Position numbers and translations under genes: made by a program. A DNA stretch of 64,000 nt from an uncultured Anaerolineae bacterium (GTDB taxonomy: Bacteria > Chloroflexota > Anaerolineae > J036 > Brachytrichaceae), in contig CALGMA010000044.1 of NCBI GenBank assembly GCA_937959265.1, positions 1 to 64,000 on the forward strand, given 5' to 3'. Positions 3,603 through 10,935 of the stretch are shown here, piece by piece. How positions within the stretch are numbered: position 1 is the stretch's first letter; every line of letters starts with the position of its first letter. The notes beneath the pieces are model-generated. The model was not told the origin of the DNA. It ran no database searches and saw nothing but the letters and a program-made list of their open reading frames with translations.

Positions 3603-4691
3603 TTATGCTGGCGCCGGCACGACTACGCGGCGCTGCTCTACCTGGCGCAGCCGCGCCAGCGTGCTGAAAAGCGCCTGACGCCGGTTGCGTCGTGCTACCG
3701 CCATCGAGATGATGTTGCTCACGGCCTCGGCATAGGTGTAGCCCGCAGCGTAACACGCGCCGGCAAAGCCGCCATCCGGGCAAATGTCGGGATTCGGATT
3801 CACGTCCACCACATATGGTTGATCGTGCGCATCAATGCGCAAATCCACCCGGGCATAGTCGCGGCAGTCGAAGGCCCGATATGTATCCAGGGCGATTTTC
3901 TCAACGCGCGCGCGCAATGCATCGGACACGATCGGCTGAGTGATGACCGGCATGCTATCCCACTCCGGGCTATCAGGCACCCACTTGCTATCCCATGTCA
4001 CCATGCGATGGAGCGGGTTCGCCACGCGCGAGAAGTCGATCTCGCGCAGCGGCAACACGCGCGGGCGGCCGTTCCCCCAGATGGCCACGTTGATCTCGCG
4101 CCCGGCGATGAATTTCTCGGCCAGGGCCGGCTCTTTCACCGTCTCCAGCACATAGGTCACCCGGCGACGCAGCGACTCCAGGTCATGCACCACCGCATCA
4201 CGCGTAACGGCCACCGAGCAATGTGAGCTGACCGGTTTGACGATCGCCGGGAAGTTGGCTTCATCCCAGTTGGCCGGCGTCACTTCATCCGGATGCTTGA
4301 ACTCGCGCCCGCCGGGCGTCGGGATCTTCCAACGCTGCAACACCTTCTTGACGCGCCCCTTCTCCACCGAGAGCCGGAGCGTATAGGGCGAGTTACCGGT
4401 GTAGGTAAAGCCCATCGCCTCCATGTCGGCGCACACCCGCGCGTCTCCGCCGATCTCGTCCTCAATGCCTTCGCACCAGTTGAAGACGATCCACTCCGCC
4501 GGATCGTAGGATCGCAGCGCCGGCCGCACGTCCTTCCAGAACTCCGCTACGGCCACCCTGTGACCCAGCTCGCGCAGGCCGTCCACCATGATTTGGGTCA
4601 AGCGATCGGCCTCCGTTCTATCCTGTGGCGACCAGCTCTGATAGATGTTGTAGAGCACAATGACCGGCGCGCGCATTTTGTCCTTCGACAT
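3603..4691 (-). CDS. ATP-grasp ligase, D-Ala-D-Ala-ligase-like (A)
   Basis: This 362-residue protein has the ATP-grasp fold. It would join a carboxylate to an amine through an acyl-phosphate using ATP; the substrate is unknown. Visible landmarks are the ATP-binding strand PAIVKPVSSHCS, the acidic segment FDCRDYARVDLRID and the metal-site strand VVDVNPNPDICPDGG. The last segment differs from true Ddl (EINxxPG), so cell-wall D-Ala-D-Ala synthesis is unlikely. The segment order and the H-C-S and PDGGFA motifs are shared with ATP-grasp B, so the two are paralogues. It is the last gene of a leftward operon with a GNAT gene and two more ATP-grasp genes. The gene product is most likely one step in a small peptide or amide pathway. 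Confidence 0.85.
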   Translation of the reverse strand: MSKDKMRAPVIVLYNIYQSWSPQDRTEADRLTQIMVDGLRELGHRVAVAEFWKDVRPALRSYDPAEWIVFNWCEGIEDEIGGDARVCADMEAMGFTYTGNSPYTLRLSVEKGRVKKVLQRWKIPTPGGREFKHPDEVTPANWDEANFPAIVKPVSSHCSVAVTRDAVVHDLESLRRRVTYVLETVKEPALAEKFIAGREINVAIWGNGRPRVLPLREIDFSRVANPLHRMVTWDSKWVPDSPEWDSMPVITQPIVSDALRARVEKIALDTYRAFDCRDYARVDLRIDAHDQPYVVDVNPNPDICPDGGFAGACYAAGYTYAEAVSNIISMAVARRNRRQALFSTLARLRQVEQRRVVVPAPA

Positions 4692-4710
4692 ACACTATAC
4701 GCTCCTTCCT

Positions 4711-5232
4711 CTATAAACGCTTCCAGTAGATGTTCAAATCGTCGCCCTCAGCATAGTAATCAGGCACGACGGCGACGCAGATGAATCCTGCGCTTTCATA
4801 CAACCTGCGCGCAGGCGCATACTTCGGTGTGGACGAGGTGTAGATCACCATTAACCGTCCACCGGCCTGGTGCGCCTGGGATTCAACCTCGGCCATCAAG
4901 GCCCGGCCGGCGCCCTTGCCCCGCGCCTCGGGCACCACGCAAATCCAGAACAAATCCCAAGTGCGATCGGTGAGCGACTCCGGCCCGTAGCAGGCAAAGC
5001 CGATCATGCGCCCGTCACACCAGCACGACAGCCAACGATAGTTATCCTCGCGCGGAGGAGACTGCCACGTTTCGAGGAACATCGCGTCCACACACTCGGC
5101 GTCTGCACAACCAAAGATCTCCGAGCGCATCAGGATGTTGTAGATGGCCTGCCGCTCGTCGAAGGTGGAAGGGCGCACCTCGACCTGCGCAGGCGCGGGC
5201 GTGCCGGCAATCGCATGCAACGCGCGCATCAT
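4711..5232 (-). CDS. GNAT-family N-acetyltransferase
   Basis: This 173-residue protein has the acetyl-CoA-binding signature VVPEARGKGAGRALM (R-x-x-G-x-G type) about two thirds along, followed by the usual helix and YTSSTPKYAPARRLYESAGF motif. It should transfer an acyl group from CoA to an amine. Its ATG overlaps the stop of ATP-grasp B by 4 bp (ATGA), so the two are translationally coupled, and it probably acetylates an intermediate or product of the ATP-grasp enzymes (inference). It could instead be a self-resistance or salvage enzyme for the product. Confidence 0.85.
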   Translation of the reverse strand: MMRALHAIAGTPAPAQVEVRPSTFDERQAIYNILMRSEIFGCADAECVDAMFLETWQSPPREDNYRWLSCWCDGRMIGFACYGPESLTDRTWDLFWICVVPEARGKGAGRALMAEVESQAHQAGGRLMVIYTSSTPKYAPARRLYESAGFICVAVVPDYYAEGDDLNIYWKRL

Positions 5233-6245
5233 TGCGCCACCTCTGCCATAGTGTGGGGATCACGGGTTGGCATGCGACGCATCGCCAGCCTGACGATGCG
5301 CTCGAGCATGTCGGCATAGTCCAAGCCAGCAGCGCGCGCGGCGTTGGCGAAGCCGCCGTCCGGGCTCACGTCGCAGTTGGCGTTCACGTCGAGGGCCATC
5401 GGCTGATCACCCCACAACCGCAAGTCAACCCGACCGTAGTCGCGGCAGCCGGTCGCCCGGTAGGCGGCGATCGCGACCGCTTCGATCTTCGCTTGCAGCG
5501 CTGGAGAGACCGGTGCCGGGCAGATGGCCGGGATGCGCTGGTAAGCCTCCGACTCCGGCGTCCATTTCGCGTCGAACGTGCACAGCCGGTCGCGAATATC
5601 ATCGAAGGCGTTGTAGGTCATCGTACTGATGCCGAGCACGCTCACATCGTCGTCGCTGCCCCACAGCGACACGTTGTATTCAGGGCTATCCAGGAACGTC
5701 TCGATCAGCGCCGGCTGGCGAAACTCGCCGACGATACGGGTAACCTGCGCGCGTGCCTCATCGGCATTCATCACCACCGAGTCGCGCGTAATGCCGTAGG
5801 AGCAATGTTCGGCCGCTGGTTTGACGATGGCGGGAAAGGCGTCGAAAGCCACGTCCTCCGCACGTTCGACGATCGCCCAGGTCGGCGTCGGCACGCCATG
5901 CGCCTCCAGGAGTGCTTTCATGCGCCACTTGTACTGCGTCTCGTCCAGCGCCCAGGCGTCCGAACCGGTAAAGGCATAGCCTAGCTCGGCCAGCATACGG
6001 GTGACGCGGGCGTAGTAGAACTCCTGCGCCGGCGCGCCCTCGCACAGGTTGAAGATCAACCACTCGCCGGGGTCGAAGGGTCTGAGCAGTGTGATCAGGT
6101 CATGAGCGACTTGCATTGGAAGCACGCGCCAGCCGCGCGACAACAACGCTTCCGTCGCGGCTTTGACCAACGCCAGCGTAGACGCAATCTCGAAGTCATG
6201 ACTGGCTTCGTCGAGTCCGTAGAGGAGAAGCAGCGGAGGGGTCAT
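5229..6245 (-). CDS. ATP-grasp ligase, D-Ala-D-Ala-ligase-like (B)
   Basis: This 338-residue ATP-grasp protein shows the ATP-binding strand FPAIVKPAAEHCSYGI, the CRDYGRVDLRLW segment and the metal-site strand ALDVNANCDVSPDGG. The C-terminal motif and spacing match ATP-grasp A much more closely than classical Ddl, which supports a duplication followed by specialisation. It starts at an ATG at 6245 and sits 47 bp after ATP-grasp C. It ends overlapping the GNAT gene. The exact substrate is not readable from the sequence; ligation of amino acids or amino-acid-like acids is the best general expectation for this clade. Confidence 0.83.
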   Translation of the reverse strand: MTPPLLLLYGLDEASHDFEIASTLALVKAATEALLSRGWRVLPMQVAHDLITLLRPFDPGEWLIFNLCEGAPAQEFYYARVTRMLAELGYAFTGSDAWALDETQYKWRMKALLEAHGVPTPTWAIVERAEDVAFDAFPAIVKPAAEHCSYGITRDSVVMNADEARAQVTRIVGEFRQPALIETFLDSPEYNVSLWGSDDDVSVLGISTMTYNAFDDIRDRLCTFDAKWTPESEAYQRIPAICPAPVSPALQAKIEAVAIAAYRATGCRDYGRVDLRLWGDQPMALDVNANCDVSPDGGFANAARAAGLDYADMLERIVRLAMRRMPTRDPHTMAEVAQ

Positions 6246-6292
6246 CTGTGTCGGAGTGCCGGCTATCGCGCGTCATTCGCATCCGGCGCGCG

Positions 6293-7441
6293 TCACATGC
6301 CATACCGCCTCAAACCCGCATCCAGCACTGCCCGGACTAGGTCGCCATGCGTCCAGCCCTCCGCTTCGGCCATCAGCGTCAGGTCGCTGCGTGGGGTGAT
6401 GCCGGGCAAAGCATTGATTTCGAGGATGAACGGCCGGTTCCGCTCGTCCAGGCGGAAGTCCACACGCGCAAAGTCGCGACAACCGGTGACCATGAAGGTT
6501 TGGTGCGTCAGCCGCTGAATTTTGCGGGTCAGCGCCTCTCCAAGAGGCGCCGGGCACTTGTTTCGATAGAGATGGTCTAGTTCGACCTTTTGCACCGAGC
6601 CGTAGATCGGCAACAGTTCAGGGGGATAGCCACTGAAATCCACCTCGGTAATCGGGAAGAAGTGCACATCGTGACCATTGCCCACCAGTCCACAGGTGAT
6701 ATCACGCCCGGCGATATAGGTTTCGACCAGCGCGGGCTGCTGATAAGCCTCGATTGTCCAGGCGACGCGGTCGCGCAGTTGGCGCTCGTTGTGCGCTACG
6801 CTCTCGTTGTGCACGCCCATACCGGTGCCCTCATGCGCCGGCTTGACGAACAAAGGGAAGTGCAACGTATGACGCAGCGGGTCATCCGGCGTATGGAATA
6901 CCTGAAAGTGCGGCGTCGGCATGCCATAGTAGTGCAGGATGCGCTTGGTGGTTGGCTTGTCGTGCGTGATCGCTGCGGCGAGCGGCGTCGGGCCGGTGTA
7001 GCGCGCACCGACCATCTCCAGCAGTGCCGGCACCTGCGCCTCGCGACTGTCACCGCCGAAGCCCTCGCAAGTGTTGAAGCAAATATCGGGCCGGACTTCG
7101 TCGAGCCAGGACGCAAGATACGCATCACCTTCACGGATTAGCACTTCATGGCCGGCCTGGCGCAGGGCCTGCGCATACGACTCCACATTTTTGTCCGAGT
7201 CCAACTCGGCCAAGATGTCAGGAGGCGCATTGTTGCGGTGGATCGGCGGCGCATTGCGCGCCAGGTTGACGAGTAGCGCGATCCGGTAAGTGCGATTGGC
7301 CGGCGGCGTGTGGAACGTCGGCCATACGTCGGGGGTGACTCGCAACGCCGAGCCGGCGGTCTTACTCGTTCCGTGGTATCCGTTCGTCGTAACGCTTGCG
7401 AGTACGATCTCTGCTTCTTCCTGCTGCGAACTTGCTGCCAT
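6293..7441 (-). CDS. ATP-grasp ligase, Ddl-like (C), first gene of the operon
   Basis: This 382-residue protein is the closest of the three to D-Ala-D-Ala ligases: it has FVKPAHEGTGMGV for ATP binding, GCRDFARVDFRLD and the canonical metal-binding strand EINALPGITPRSDLT. It carries about 50 extra N-terminal residues, and the R-N-K-C-P-A-P segment is shared with Ddl-like amino-acid ligases. A bona fide ddl role is possible, but its place in an operon with two divergent paralogues and a GNAT argues for a dedicated pathway. A sigma70-type promoter (7474-7501) lies upstream and should drive all four genes. Confidence 0.85.
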   Translation of the reverse strand: MAASSQQEEAEIVLASVTTNGYHGTSKTAGSALRVTPDVWPTFHTPPANRTYRIALLVNLARNAPPIHRNNAPPDILAELDSDKNVESYAQALRQAGHEVLIREGDAYLASWLDEVRPDICFNTCEGFGGDSREAQVPALLEMVGARYTGPTPLAAAITHDKPTTKRILHYYGMPTPHFQVFHTPDDPLRHTLHFPLFVKPAHEGTGMGVHNESVAHNERQLRDRVAWTIEAYQQPALVETYIAGRDITCGLVGNGHDVHFFPITEVDFSGYPPELLPIYGSVQKVELDHLYRNKCPAPLGEALTRKIQRLTHQTFMVTGCRDFARVDFRLDERNRPFILEINALPGITPRSDLTLMAEAEGWTHGDLVRAVLDAGLRRYGM

Positions 7442-7473
7442 ATGCGCCAGGACTCATCGAGTCTTACGGCGCG

Positions 7474-7501
7474 ATTCTATGTTGTGCGTTTTACTTGTCA
7501 A
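7474..7501 (-). promoter_or_regulatory. Sigma70-type promoter of the ATP-grasp/GNAT operon
   Basis: On the minus strand TTGACA (7501-7496) is followed after 16 nt by TAGAAT (7479-7474). The predicted start of transcription is about 25 nt before the ATG of ATP-grasp C. A small dyad GACTC-ATC-GAGTC (7451-7463) lies between promoter and gene and could be an operator or a leader hairpin. Confidence 0.7.
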
Positions 7502-7911: not shown

Positions 7912-10900
7912 CTATGCGCGTTGTCGCTCACTATTATCCCTGTTCCGGCTGCGCGCACGCAACATCACCAGCGCCAGGCCGGCGCCCAGCAAGGCAAACA
8001 GCATCGCCATCAGCACAGCGCCGCTCCAATCCAATGCAGCCATCACCCAGTTCAGCCCCGGCGCGCCGAGCGCCGCCAGGGTATAGCTCAGCCAGCCGGC
8101 GACCCATACGCCCAACGCCACCCGCACCTTCGTGTGCAGATCGGGGACGCCGAACCCTCCCTGAGACAGGATGGTGAACACACCCACACTCACCGCTAGC
8201 AACCCGATCAGAGTGAGCAGGAAGCCGGCGAGGTTGGACCGTGCCGCAGAAGGCACACCACGCGGCGTGGGCGTTGGCAGCACTGCCGTCGCTTCGGGCG
8301 CCAGCGACTCGGCCGATACAGTTGCAGGCTGCGACAACTCGGCCGGTGGCGAGGTGGGAATCACCGTCTCCACCGAGACCTTGTCGGTCGCATTCACATT
8401 GATGGTATACGATGTAATCGCCTGATCGGCCTCGGCCCGGATCTCGAGCTTACCTTGCCGCTGCAACTCGATCATGGTCTCTGCAAACCCATCACGGGTG
8501 ATCGCCCTGTTGCCCGGCAGGCGCTGTTCGATGCGCTCGTCTGGATACGAGAGGATGAACTGCACCTCGGTGCCGTCAGGGACCAAACGCCCGTTCAGAT
8601 CGAAGATTGGTCCGGCCCGAACCCGCAGGCGATCACCGATCTTCAACTCAAGCGGCGCGGGCGTGCCTTCCACAGTAGCAGTGATTGGCTCGCTCCCAGC
8701 AGGCACAGCCACGAGCGGAATGACTTGATCGCGATTCGGCGCTGTTTGGACGATGAGCGAGTAACCCAGGCTGTTGATCGAGACCGGGGAATTGCCCGGC
8801 GCCGGGAACTCACCGAACACCGCGCGTAATGCCGCTTCGAGATAGGGCCGGCTGCGGCTGTAGACGCCGAAGTAGGCTGTAGTCCGGCTGATCTCGGTTG
8901 CGTCAAGATAGTACGGCGCACCTAGCGCGAATACGATCACGCGCTTGTCTTTGAGTATGTCGGCGCTCTGAGCAAGGAAGGTGCGCAGTGCGGCAGTCGA
9001 AGGCACGGCCGGGTTGGTGTCTATGACTGCGATGATGATCCAAGTCGCGCGCTCGATAGCAGATTGAATCTTGAGCGGCGGGCGATCGGGCGTCGCCGTC
9101 GGTTGCACCACCTCGCCGACGGCCGGACCGGTCGCTGTCGGCAAGAGCGGTGCACTGCCCGGCGTCGCCGCCAGCGCACTCGCCCGACGATTGTAGTCCG
9201 CCAGGTCGCCGAACGTGAATGAAGCAATGCGCGATGGATCCACCTGCTCGGTCTTGCGTGGGCCATACAGATCGAGCGCGATTTCCTCCAGCGCCGTGCG
9301 CGACACAGCGGGATAAGGCTCGCAACCTACGCACTCACGAATGGTGCGGTTGTCGGTGATGAAGACGATGTAATCGTTCTTTGTTGGCTGTGTCGGCAAG
9401 ACTGCTGGCAGGTCGCGCACGTTCGGCGAGAGCAGCGTGATGCTCTCCTTGGCCATCTTGGCAATCTTGGCAGCCGACTCGTCCTGCTCTTCCAACTGTT
9501 CGACTTCCTTCACCAGGACGTCGCTCAATTTGAACTGGCCCTTATACAGGCGCAGCTTCAGCGAAATGATGCGCATGAGCGATTCATCCACACGGGCGGC
9601 GAACGTCTTATCTTCCGAGTATTTGGTCTGGAAGAACGAGATGGTCTCGATGATGTTCGTCAACTGCTCCGGCCAGTCGTTGGTTAGCCCGAAGTTACCC
9701 AGCACCAGCACATCGTTGCCGGCCATGAACGCCTCCTGAGCGATGCGCCGGGCGTTGAACGACGTCTCGAGCGGGTCGTAGAAACGTCGCACACTGCGCA
9801 CGCCAAGCTGATCACTGAATGTCACACCGCCGCTGTTGCGCCAGGCTGCTGTCTCAGGCAGAGACATCAGAAATTGATACGCTTGCGGGTCGAAGCTGAC
9901 CGGCCGCGTGCTGGCACGAATGTTGCCCTGTAGGCCACGATACCGGATGTGAGATACCAGCAGCCCGTCTACCGTCGTATCTTTCGACGCTTCGCCCTTG
10001 AGCACGGCGAAGAACGGCGCCAACTCGATCAACCGGAGTTGCTCGATGGATTTCTGCACGGTGGGGATCTCTTCGCCCACGTTGCGGTCGGAGGAACCGA
10101 GGCCAGGGAAGTGTTTGCCCACAGCAGCCAGGCGGTTTTTGCCGCCGCTGTGCAGGCCGGCCACGAACGCTGCACCCATCTTCCCCACCCAGAATGGATC
10201 ACCGCCGAACACGTGCGTGCCTAGGTCACCCGGCGTGTTTGGGCGCGGAGTATCGGTGACGTCAAGTGTTGGCCCGAACAACACGTTGACGCCCAACTGC
10301 GCAAGTTCGCTGCCCAGGATCTCACCGATAGTCTGCGCAATGGCCGGCGTCCACGTCGCGCCGATAGCCATCTGGCTCGGGATCTGCGTCACTTCCTGGG
10401 TGATCTCACTCAACTCGGAACGCGTCGTCCAGTCCGCTTCCTGCAAGAGCGCAATGAATAGCGGGATAGCGGAAGCCGAGACCGTCACGTTCGCCATCGG
10501 CGTCATCGGCTCCTGCACGAACTCACTGATCGCCTCCGTGGCTAGCTCGTCGCTGAAGGCCAATTGCTGCAGCGCATTCGTCAAACGAATAATCTGCTGT
10601 GTGACCGGCGGATCGGCCTTGGCGTTGTCGAAGTTCCGATTCGCTGCCCGCAACTGCACACCGCCGATGTGATAGTCCGTGATGAGCCTGGCAATGTCGG
10701 ACGATGGCGAGACATCGTCGCCTGGGAAGCTGACGATGAAAAGCTGGCCAACGCGTTGCGCCAAAGTCATGCGGGCAATGATGGCTTTTGCCTCTTCGAG
10801 ATAGGGGATGGTCGGTGGCTGGGGATCCTGCGCCTGGACCGGCAACGGCGCAACCTGCAGCAAAAGACATCCCAGGCAGAGCAGACTGGCCAGCCAGCGC

Positions 10901-10935
10901 TGCACCAGGGATGGGTGAGTTCGAGCGTGGGACAT
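7912..10935 (-). CDS. Membrane-anchored glycoside hydrolase family 3 (NagZ-like) protein
   Basis: This 1007-residue exported protein begins with a signal peptide (hydrophobic core LLCLGCLLLQVAPLPVQAQ). A GH3 TIM-barrel follows (about residues 40-470) with the motifs KHFPGLG, VSHIRYRG and the nucleophile region GVTFSDQLGVRS. A Rossmann-like GH3 C-terminal domain and a beta-rich region come next, then a Pro/Thr-rich linker and three C-terminal membrane helices. GH3 members of this type cleave beta-N-acetylglucosaminides, for example muropeptides. The family signature is normally KHFPGHG with a D-x-H acid/base dyad; here the loop reads GLGSSDRN, so the usual histidine is absent and the acid/base must differ or activity may be altered. 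The protein is far longer than NagZ (about 340-640). Confidence 0.87.
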   Translation of the reverse strand: MSHARTHPSLVQRWLASLLCLGCLLLQVAPLPVQAQDPQPPTIPYLEEAKAIIARMTLAQRVGQLFIVSFPGDDVSPSSDIARLITDYHIGGVQLRAANRNFDNAKADPPVTQQIIRLTNALQQLAFSDELATEAISEFVQEPMTPMANVTVSASAIPLFIALLQEADWTTRSELSEITQEVTQIPSQMAIGATWTPAIAQTIGEILGSELAQLGVNVLFGPTLDVTDTPRPNTPGDLGTHVFGGDPFWVGKMGAAFVAGLHSGGKNRLAAVGKHFPGLGSSDRNVGEEIPTVQKSIEQLRLIELAPFFAVLKGEASKDTTVDGLLVSHIRYRGLQGNIRASTRPVSFDPQAYQFLMSLPETAAWRNSGGVTFSDQLGVRSVRRFYDPLETSFNARRIAQEAFMAGNDVLVLGNFGLTNDWPEQLTNIIETISFFQTKYSEDKTFAARVDESLMRIISLKLRLYKGQFKLSDVLVKEVEQLEEQDESAAKIAKMAKESITLLSPNVRDLPAVLPTQPTKNDYIVFITDNRTIRECVGCEPYPAVSRTALEEIALDLYGPRKTEQVDPSRIASFTFGDLADYNRRASALAATPGSAPLLPTATGPAVGEVVQPTATPDRPPLKIQSAIERATWIIIAVIDTNPAVPSTAALRTFLAQSADILKDKRVIVFALGAPYYLDATEISRTTAYFGVYSRSRPYLEAALRAVFGEFPAPGNSPVSINSLGYSLIVQTAPNRDQVIPLVAVPAGSEPITATVEGTPAPLELKIGDRLRVRAGPIFDLNGRLVPDGTEVQFILSYPDERIEQRLPGNRAITRDGFAETMIELQRQGKLEIRAEADQAITSYTINVNATDKVSVETVIPTSPPAELSQPATVSAESLAPEATAVLPTPTPRGVPSAARSNLAGFLLTLIGLLAVSVGVFTILSQGGFGVPDLHTKVRVALGVWVAGWLSYTLAALGAPGLNWVMAALDWSGAVLMAMLFALLGAGLALVMLRARSRNRDNSERQRA

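Follow-up and report, generated by a model that had tools for sequence, protein, structure and literature searches.

A Ddl-like ligase and acetyltransferase operon in Anaerolineae as the probable local form of a widespread β-lysine cassette

In this study, we analyzed a stretch of 64,000 nucleotides (the window) from contig CALGMA010000044.1 of an uncultured Anaerolineae bacterium, and in particular an operon on its minus strand that encodes three ATP-grasp ligases similar to D-alanine-D-alanine ligase (Ddl) and one GNAT-type N-acetyltransferase. The genes are transcribed in the order C (6293..7441, 382 aa), B (5229..6245, 338 aa), GNAT (4711..5232, 173 aa), and A (3603..4691, 362 aa), and all four open reading frames listed in an initial annotation of this DNA were found at their minus-strand positions. 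Its assignment of three Ddl-like genes and a GNAT also holds: C, A, and B match the family PF07478 (1.1e-32, 1.4e-23, and 1.0e-18, respectively), A and B falling in one clade (A/B), and the fourth protein matches GNAT families. The genes are as tightly packed as had been reported, with intergenic distances of +47 bp (C-B), −4 bp (the B-GNAT overlap), and +19 bp (GNAT-A). The sigma-70-like promoter that had been proposed, TTGACA-16-TAGAAT, was located upstream of C (7474..7501, minus strand) with a hexamer match of 11/12. A single site of this kind in a region of this size is close to chance expectation; the promoter is very probably real because the identical hexamers and spacing recur upstream of C in seven of the eight loci of the window's family. 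The four genes are confirmed as a genuine operon, and its occurrence in the single-contig sister genome G006 shows that it is no assembly artefact.

Within the window's own family, an A-type ligase is encoded in 27 of 28 genomes, and wherever a fetched locus has the full set of four, the order is C-B-GNAT-A. Two loci of genus g3 (in G010, and one of those in G017) have matches to C and A with no B match between them, which indicates that B is an accessory copy. A wider scan with one genome per species gave more than 580 stretches encoding relatives of A/B, of which 80 loci were kept, and in these C and A/B lie side by side across phyla. The initial annotation had tied its proposal to the genes being conserved together, and they are. 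The comparison of gene neighborhoods, which it had suggested, also revealed KamA, a lysine 2,3-aminomutase, beside the cassette in other lineages. Among the 50 loci with full context, 33 encode at least two of these ligases together with KamA, and 29 of these have the GNAT as well. Loci with both ligases and KamA occur in Chloroflexota, Desulfuromonadales, Ignavibacteria/Bacteroidota, Acidobacteriota/Aminicenantota, and Bathyarchaeota. KamA stands last in Desulfuromonadales, Ignavibacteria/Bacteroidota, and Acidobacteriota/Aminicenantota (C-A-GNAT-KamA) and first in Anaerolineae and Dehalococcoidales (KamA-C-A-GNAT), while in Bathyarchaeota A adjoins a divergent C-KamA. One locus labelled Deltaproteobacteria (L144) clusters with a Dehalococcoidales locus (L141), which may reflect mis-binning or gene transfer. 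Some Anaerolineae/Chloroflexi loci (L078, L080, L081, and L084) keep KamA-C alone and lack the GNAT; C is therefore tied more closely to KamA than the GNAT is.

Outside the window's family, KamA adjoins C, and in each of the six Anaerolineae tested it exceeds the cut-off for lysine 2,3-aminomutase. The genome of the window (G000) encodes one KamA, on another contig (G000:C27:22970-24181), which scores 530.8 bits against the lysine 2,3-aminomutase (AblA) equivalog cut-off of 525.4. This protein carries Asp293 and Asp330 (numbering of the solved enzyme 2a5h), which we take to be the residues that bind the lysine side chain, and Asp293 is kept in 79 of 80 KamAs. Identity as a glutamate or arginine 2,3-aminomutase was rejected, as the protein falls under the cut-offs and has the lysine-binding Asp pair. 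In the KamA tree, the unlinked KamAs of the window's family form one clade inside the cassette-linked KamAs of Anaerolineae, which shows that they are orthologous; the linkage was therefore probably lost and the gene kept. Across 111 genomes sampled evenly across the phylum, KamA is present in 24 of 25 cassette genomes versus 18 of 86 others (Fisher p = 5e-12, a value that is optimistic because the sampled genomes are related). Moreover, 20 of the 22 genomes without an intact linked KamA set at the fetched ligase locus have a KamA match. Since KamA adjoins the cassette in other lineages and is encoded elsewhere in the window's genome, β-lysine is very probably one of the building blocks.

Genes for a PAS-type sensor and for response regulators lie between C and KamA in some delta-proteobacteria (L109:918-8020, L118, L121), and several Anaerolineae have a gene for an OmpR-type regulator ahead of the cassette. 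By eye, we also identified an APC-type permease and two TrkA-like potassium-uptake genes downstream of one KamA-C-A-GNAT set (L027:5434-11222), an APC-type permease after C in L078, and, after the GNAT in L025 (9747-11295), what are likely pdxS/pdxT, genes for the synthesis of pyridoxal phosphate, a cofactor of KamA.

The active-site residues of the ligases were compared in an alignment of 62 proteins (32 A/B and 30 C), numbered as in E. coli DdlB. Lys97, Lys144, Glu180, Lys215, Arg255, Asp257, and Asn272 are invariant in all 62, and positions Glu187 and Glu270 are always Glu or Asp. With these ATP-grasp residues intact, C, A, and B should all be active ligases. The two families differ where the acceptor would bind. 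Members of the C family, the window's C included, have an acid (Glu/Asp) at Glu15 and retain Gly276 (30/30) and Ser281 (28/30), which in established Ddl structures hold the acceptor carboxylate, so that the acceptor of C may be expected to be an amino acid. In the A/B family, Gly276 is replaced by Asp (29/32), Ser281 by Ala or Gly (31/32), Leu282 by Gly (31/32), and Tyr216 by Trp (32/32); the window's A has Asp276, Gly281, and Trp216. Having lost Gly276 and Ser281, A and B would take an acceptor without a carboxylate at that place, possibly an amine.

None of the three ligases reaches the curated cut-off of the D-Ala-D-Ala ligase model TIGR01205 (245.65 bits), the scores being 140.7 for C, 82.9 for A, and 78.9 for B. 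In a phylogenetic tree, C, A/B, and canonical Ddl form separate groups, with Shimodaira-Hasegawa-like approximate likelihood ratio test supports of 91, 97, and 100, respectively. The canonical EINALPG strand that had been assigned to C is present, as are the H-C-S and V-N-x-N-x-D-x-x-P-D-G-G motifs described for A and B, but the Cys of 'HCS' is not family-wide (Ala in 15, Cys in 11, and Gly in 6 of 32 sequences). A and B are indeed paralogues, but old ones: their 36% identity and the tree rule out a recent simple duplication. AlphaFold2 gave models for A (predicted local distance difference test score 94.1) and C (86.7, with residues 1-45 predicted to be disordered). Searches of the PDB with these models matched Ddl-type enzymes alone and gave no clue to the substrates.

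On this basis, the operon is probably the Roseilinea/Thermoflexales form of a widespread β-lysine cassette, in which the ATP-grasp ligases form amides and the GNAT acetylates. In the proposed pathway, KamA, encoded elsewhere in the genome, would first convert L-lysine to L-β-lysine, a reaction deduced for this identified enzyme from its family and active site. With ATP, C would then turn the carboxylate of one amino acid into an acyl phosphate and join this amino acid to a carboxylate-bearing acceptor, with β-lysine as either the one partner or the other. A, together with B in genomes that have it, would add a further amide bond to an acceptor that lacks a Ddl-like carboxylate, for example the second amino group of β-lysine or a di- or polyamine. 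Finally, the GNAT might acetylate a free amine, as a last or a protecting step. Such a pathway would yield a small, soluble β-lysine amide or oligopeptide that carries an acetyl group, with a protective solute, a cofactor, or a signal as candidate roles; a compatible-solute role would echo N-ε-acetyl-β-lysine. That β-lysine is a substrate of C and/or A, and in what order the ligations proceed, we infer. The idea in the initial annotation that ATP-grasp ligases and an acetylation step build a small peptide or amide is still the best reading, although it had missed the lysine 2,3-aminomutase. Taken more broadly, we consider the chances about even that KamA, one to three Ddl-derived ligases, and a GNAT constitute a new pathway to a new class of β-lysine amides, spread over many phyla and archaea and including organisms without peptidoglycan genes.

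Several observations weigh against this proposal. KamA also occurs in about one-fifth of the cassette-free genomes, and five of the 27 cassette-bearing genomes of the window's family show none (G001, G013, G021, G023, and G025); all five are draft assemblies, yet G013 reaches 94% completeness in 20 contigs. Most cassette KamAs from outside the Chloroflexi score 465-525 bits, somewhat under the equivalog cut-off. The second to fourth steps are assigned by residue replacement alone. A simple role as a salt-stress solute fits poorly with the freshwater or groundwater origin of several hosts. In addition, several delta-proteobacterial loci place C-A with polyamine genes and not with KamA, and the amine may therefore vary.

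The last of these points also leads to a different explanation, namely that the ligases conjugate amino acids (β-lysine or others) to putrescine or homospermidine, and that the KamA linkage represents one branch only. In L107, L110, L112 (3457-8068), L115, L117, L119, and L120, polyamine genes precede C-A: a pyruvoyl arginine decarboxylase in all seven, an agmatinase-like gene in five, and a deoxyhypusine/homospermidine synthase-like gene likewise in five. The A/B acceptor site, which has lost Ser281 and gained an Asp, would agree with such a role, and KamA is present elsewhere in six of the seven genomes. However, this linkage is limited to one delta-proteobacterial group, whereas the linkage to KamA spans phyla. 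We regard this explanation as unlikely; as a lead only, the polyamine loci point to a di- or polyamine as a possible acceptor, which fits the A/B site.

It is similarly improbable that the ligases attach β-lysine or other units to a protein, be it a LysW-like carrier, elongation factor P (EF-P), or another acceptor. In favor of it, six Anaerolineae genomes encode a second, divergent LysW-like zinc ribbon (PF21344), distinct from the LysW of lysine biosynthesis, directly upstream of KamA (L028:4529-4867(-), L033:1295-1591, L050:2638-2910(-), L081:6981-7226, L085:4508-4828, and L027:223-471); in five of the six, a canonical LysW is also encoded at another place. Further Anaerolineae have at this site a different protein, a rubredoxin-like CxxC ribbon whose tail is acidic (L032:11461-11742(-), L024:5780-6010, L040:5950-6297, and L103:3840-4052), and in one locus EF-P directly follows A (L028:521-1078(-)). 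However, no such carrier was seen in the surroundings of the window's operon or of cassettes from other phyla, and the tails of the LysW-like proteins are divergent and for the most part acidic, and most of them lack a terminal Glu. With a carrier confined to some Anaerolineae, a LysW-carrier pathway is only a minor rival. As for β-lysylation of EF-P, it was rejected: KamA scores 260.3 bits with the EpmB model TIGR03821, under the cut-off of 369.3, and the EF-P of the window's genome has the loop APGNWRA, with no Lys at the position of E. coli Lys34.

A variant of the pathway to the compatible solute N-ε-acetyl-β-lysine, in which KamA and the GNAT would make the solute with the ligases as side players, is quite improbable, even though a KamA that belongs to the AblA equivalog and a GNAT are both part of the cassette. 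The GNAT of the window is not AblB, reaching 12.2 bits with the model TIGR03827 against a cut-off of 205.1. Furthermore, a Dehalococcoides-like genome encodes an AblA-AblB (KamA-AblB) fusion (L191:4647-6872; 754 and 346 bits, both over the cut-off) besides a separate KamA-C pair. The N-ε-acetyl-β-lysine pathway alone was rejected on these two grounds. For Dehalogenimonas, the compatible solutes named in the literature are ectoine and mannosylglycerate, and this system is not mentioned there.

That the enzymes serve peptidoglycan or its cross-bridges as additional D-Ala-D-Ala (or D-Ala-X) ligases is very improbable and largely refuted, despite the Ddl-like fold, the ATP-grasp residues, the Gly276/Ser281 of C, the Ddl entries as best PDB matches, and the lack of a canonical Ddl in the window's own metagenome-assembled genome: no MraY over the cut-off was found in 11 near-complete Dehalococcoidia-type and four Bathyarchaeota genomes with the cassette (Anaerolineae do have MraY), sister genomes encode a separate canonical Ddl over the cut-off, and a peptidoglycan role would leave the KamA linkage unexplained. 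The window's own assembly lacks MraY as well, while its relatives have both genes; as these lie 8 kb apart on one contig in the relative G010, the gap probably reflects a missing cell-division/wall cluster. A known peptidoglycan pathway, the outcome that would have spoken against the initial annotation, is thus not supported.

Upstream of the operon, the window encodes a protein of 1007 aa with a GH3 N-terminal domain (7912-10935, minus strand), the long C-terminal part of which shows low similarity.

Each of the enzyme families in the proposed β-lysine amide pathway is already known, and it is their combination that is not described in the literature found. In agreement with the earlier remark that no known pathway has this gene set, no paper on KamA together with ATP-grasp ligases was found in the literature searched, which lay mostly outside subscription journals. 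If the proposal is true, a common metabolite of anaerobic and thermophilic bacteria and archaea has gone unnoticed, and KamA gains a directly testable role beyond N-ε-acetyl-β-lysine and EF-P modification. Ddl-derived ligases with altered acceptor sites would also become usable for making amides of β-amino acids. From the point of view of annotation, matches to Ddl models would suggest cell-wall synthesis even in organisms that have no wall genes.

Among known systems, Ddl enzymes (PF07478, TIGR01205) share with the cassette ligases the fold, the ATP-grasp catalytic residues, and probably the acyl-phosphate mechanism. However, the cassette ligases lie below all Ddl cut-offs, form separate clades, coexist with true Ddl, and occur in genomes without MraY, and A/B in addition lack the acceptor-carboxylate residues. 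The N-ε-acetyl-β-lysine pathway likewise combines a lysine 2,3-aminomutase with a GNAT, but the GNAT of the cassette is of another kind than AblB, and KamA is accompanied by one to three conserved ATP-grasp ligases. The LysW amino-group-carrier systems have a parallel in the LysW-like paralogue before KamA in the six Anaerolineae genomes; the cassette differs in having no carrier near it elsewhere, in the divergent tail of that paralogue, and in its ligases, which are of the Ddl type (PF07478) and not of the LysX/RimK type. EpmAB-dependent β-lysylation of EF-P also relies on a KamA-family aminomutase that supplies β-lysine, but the KamA here is not EpmB and the genome's own EF-P lacks the acceptor Lys. 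The Ngg pathway to N-acetylglutaminylglutamine amide (NAGGN), in which a GNAT and an ATP-grasp enzyme yield an acetylated dipeptide amide, would share the chemical logic. Ngg uses a different type of ATP-grasp enzyme, in a fused protein that acts on Gln, and we know of no aminomutase in that pathway.

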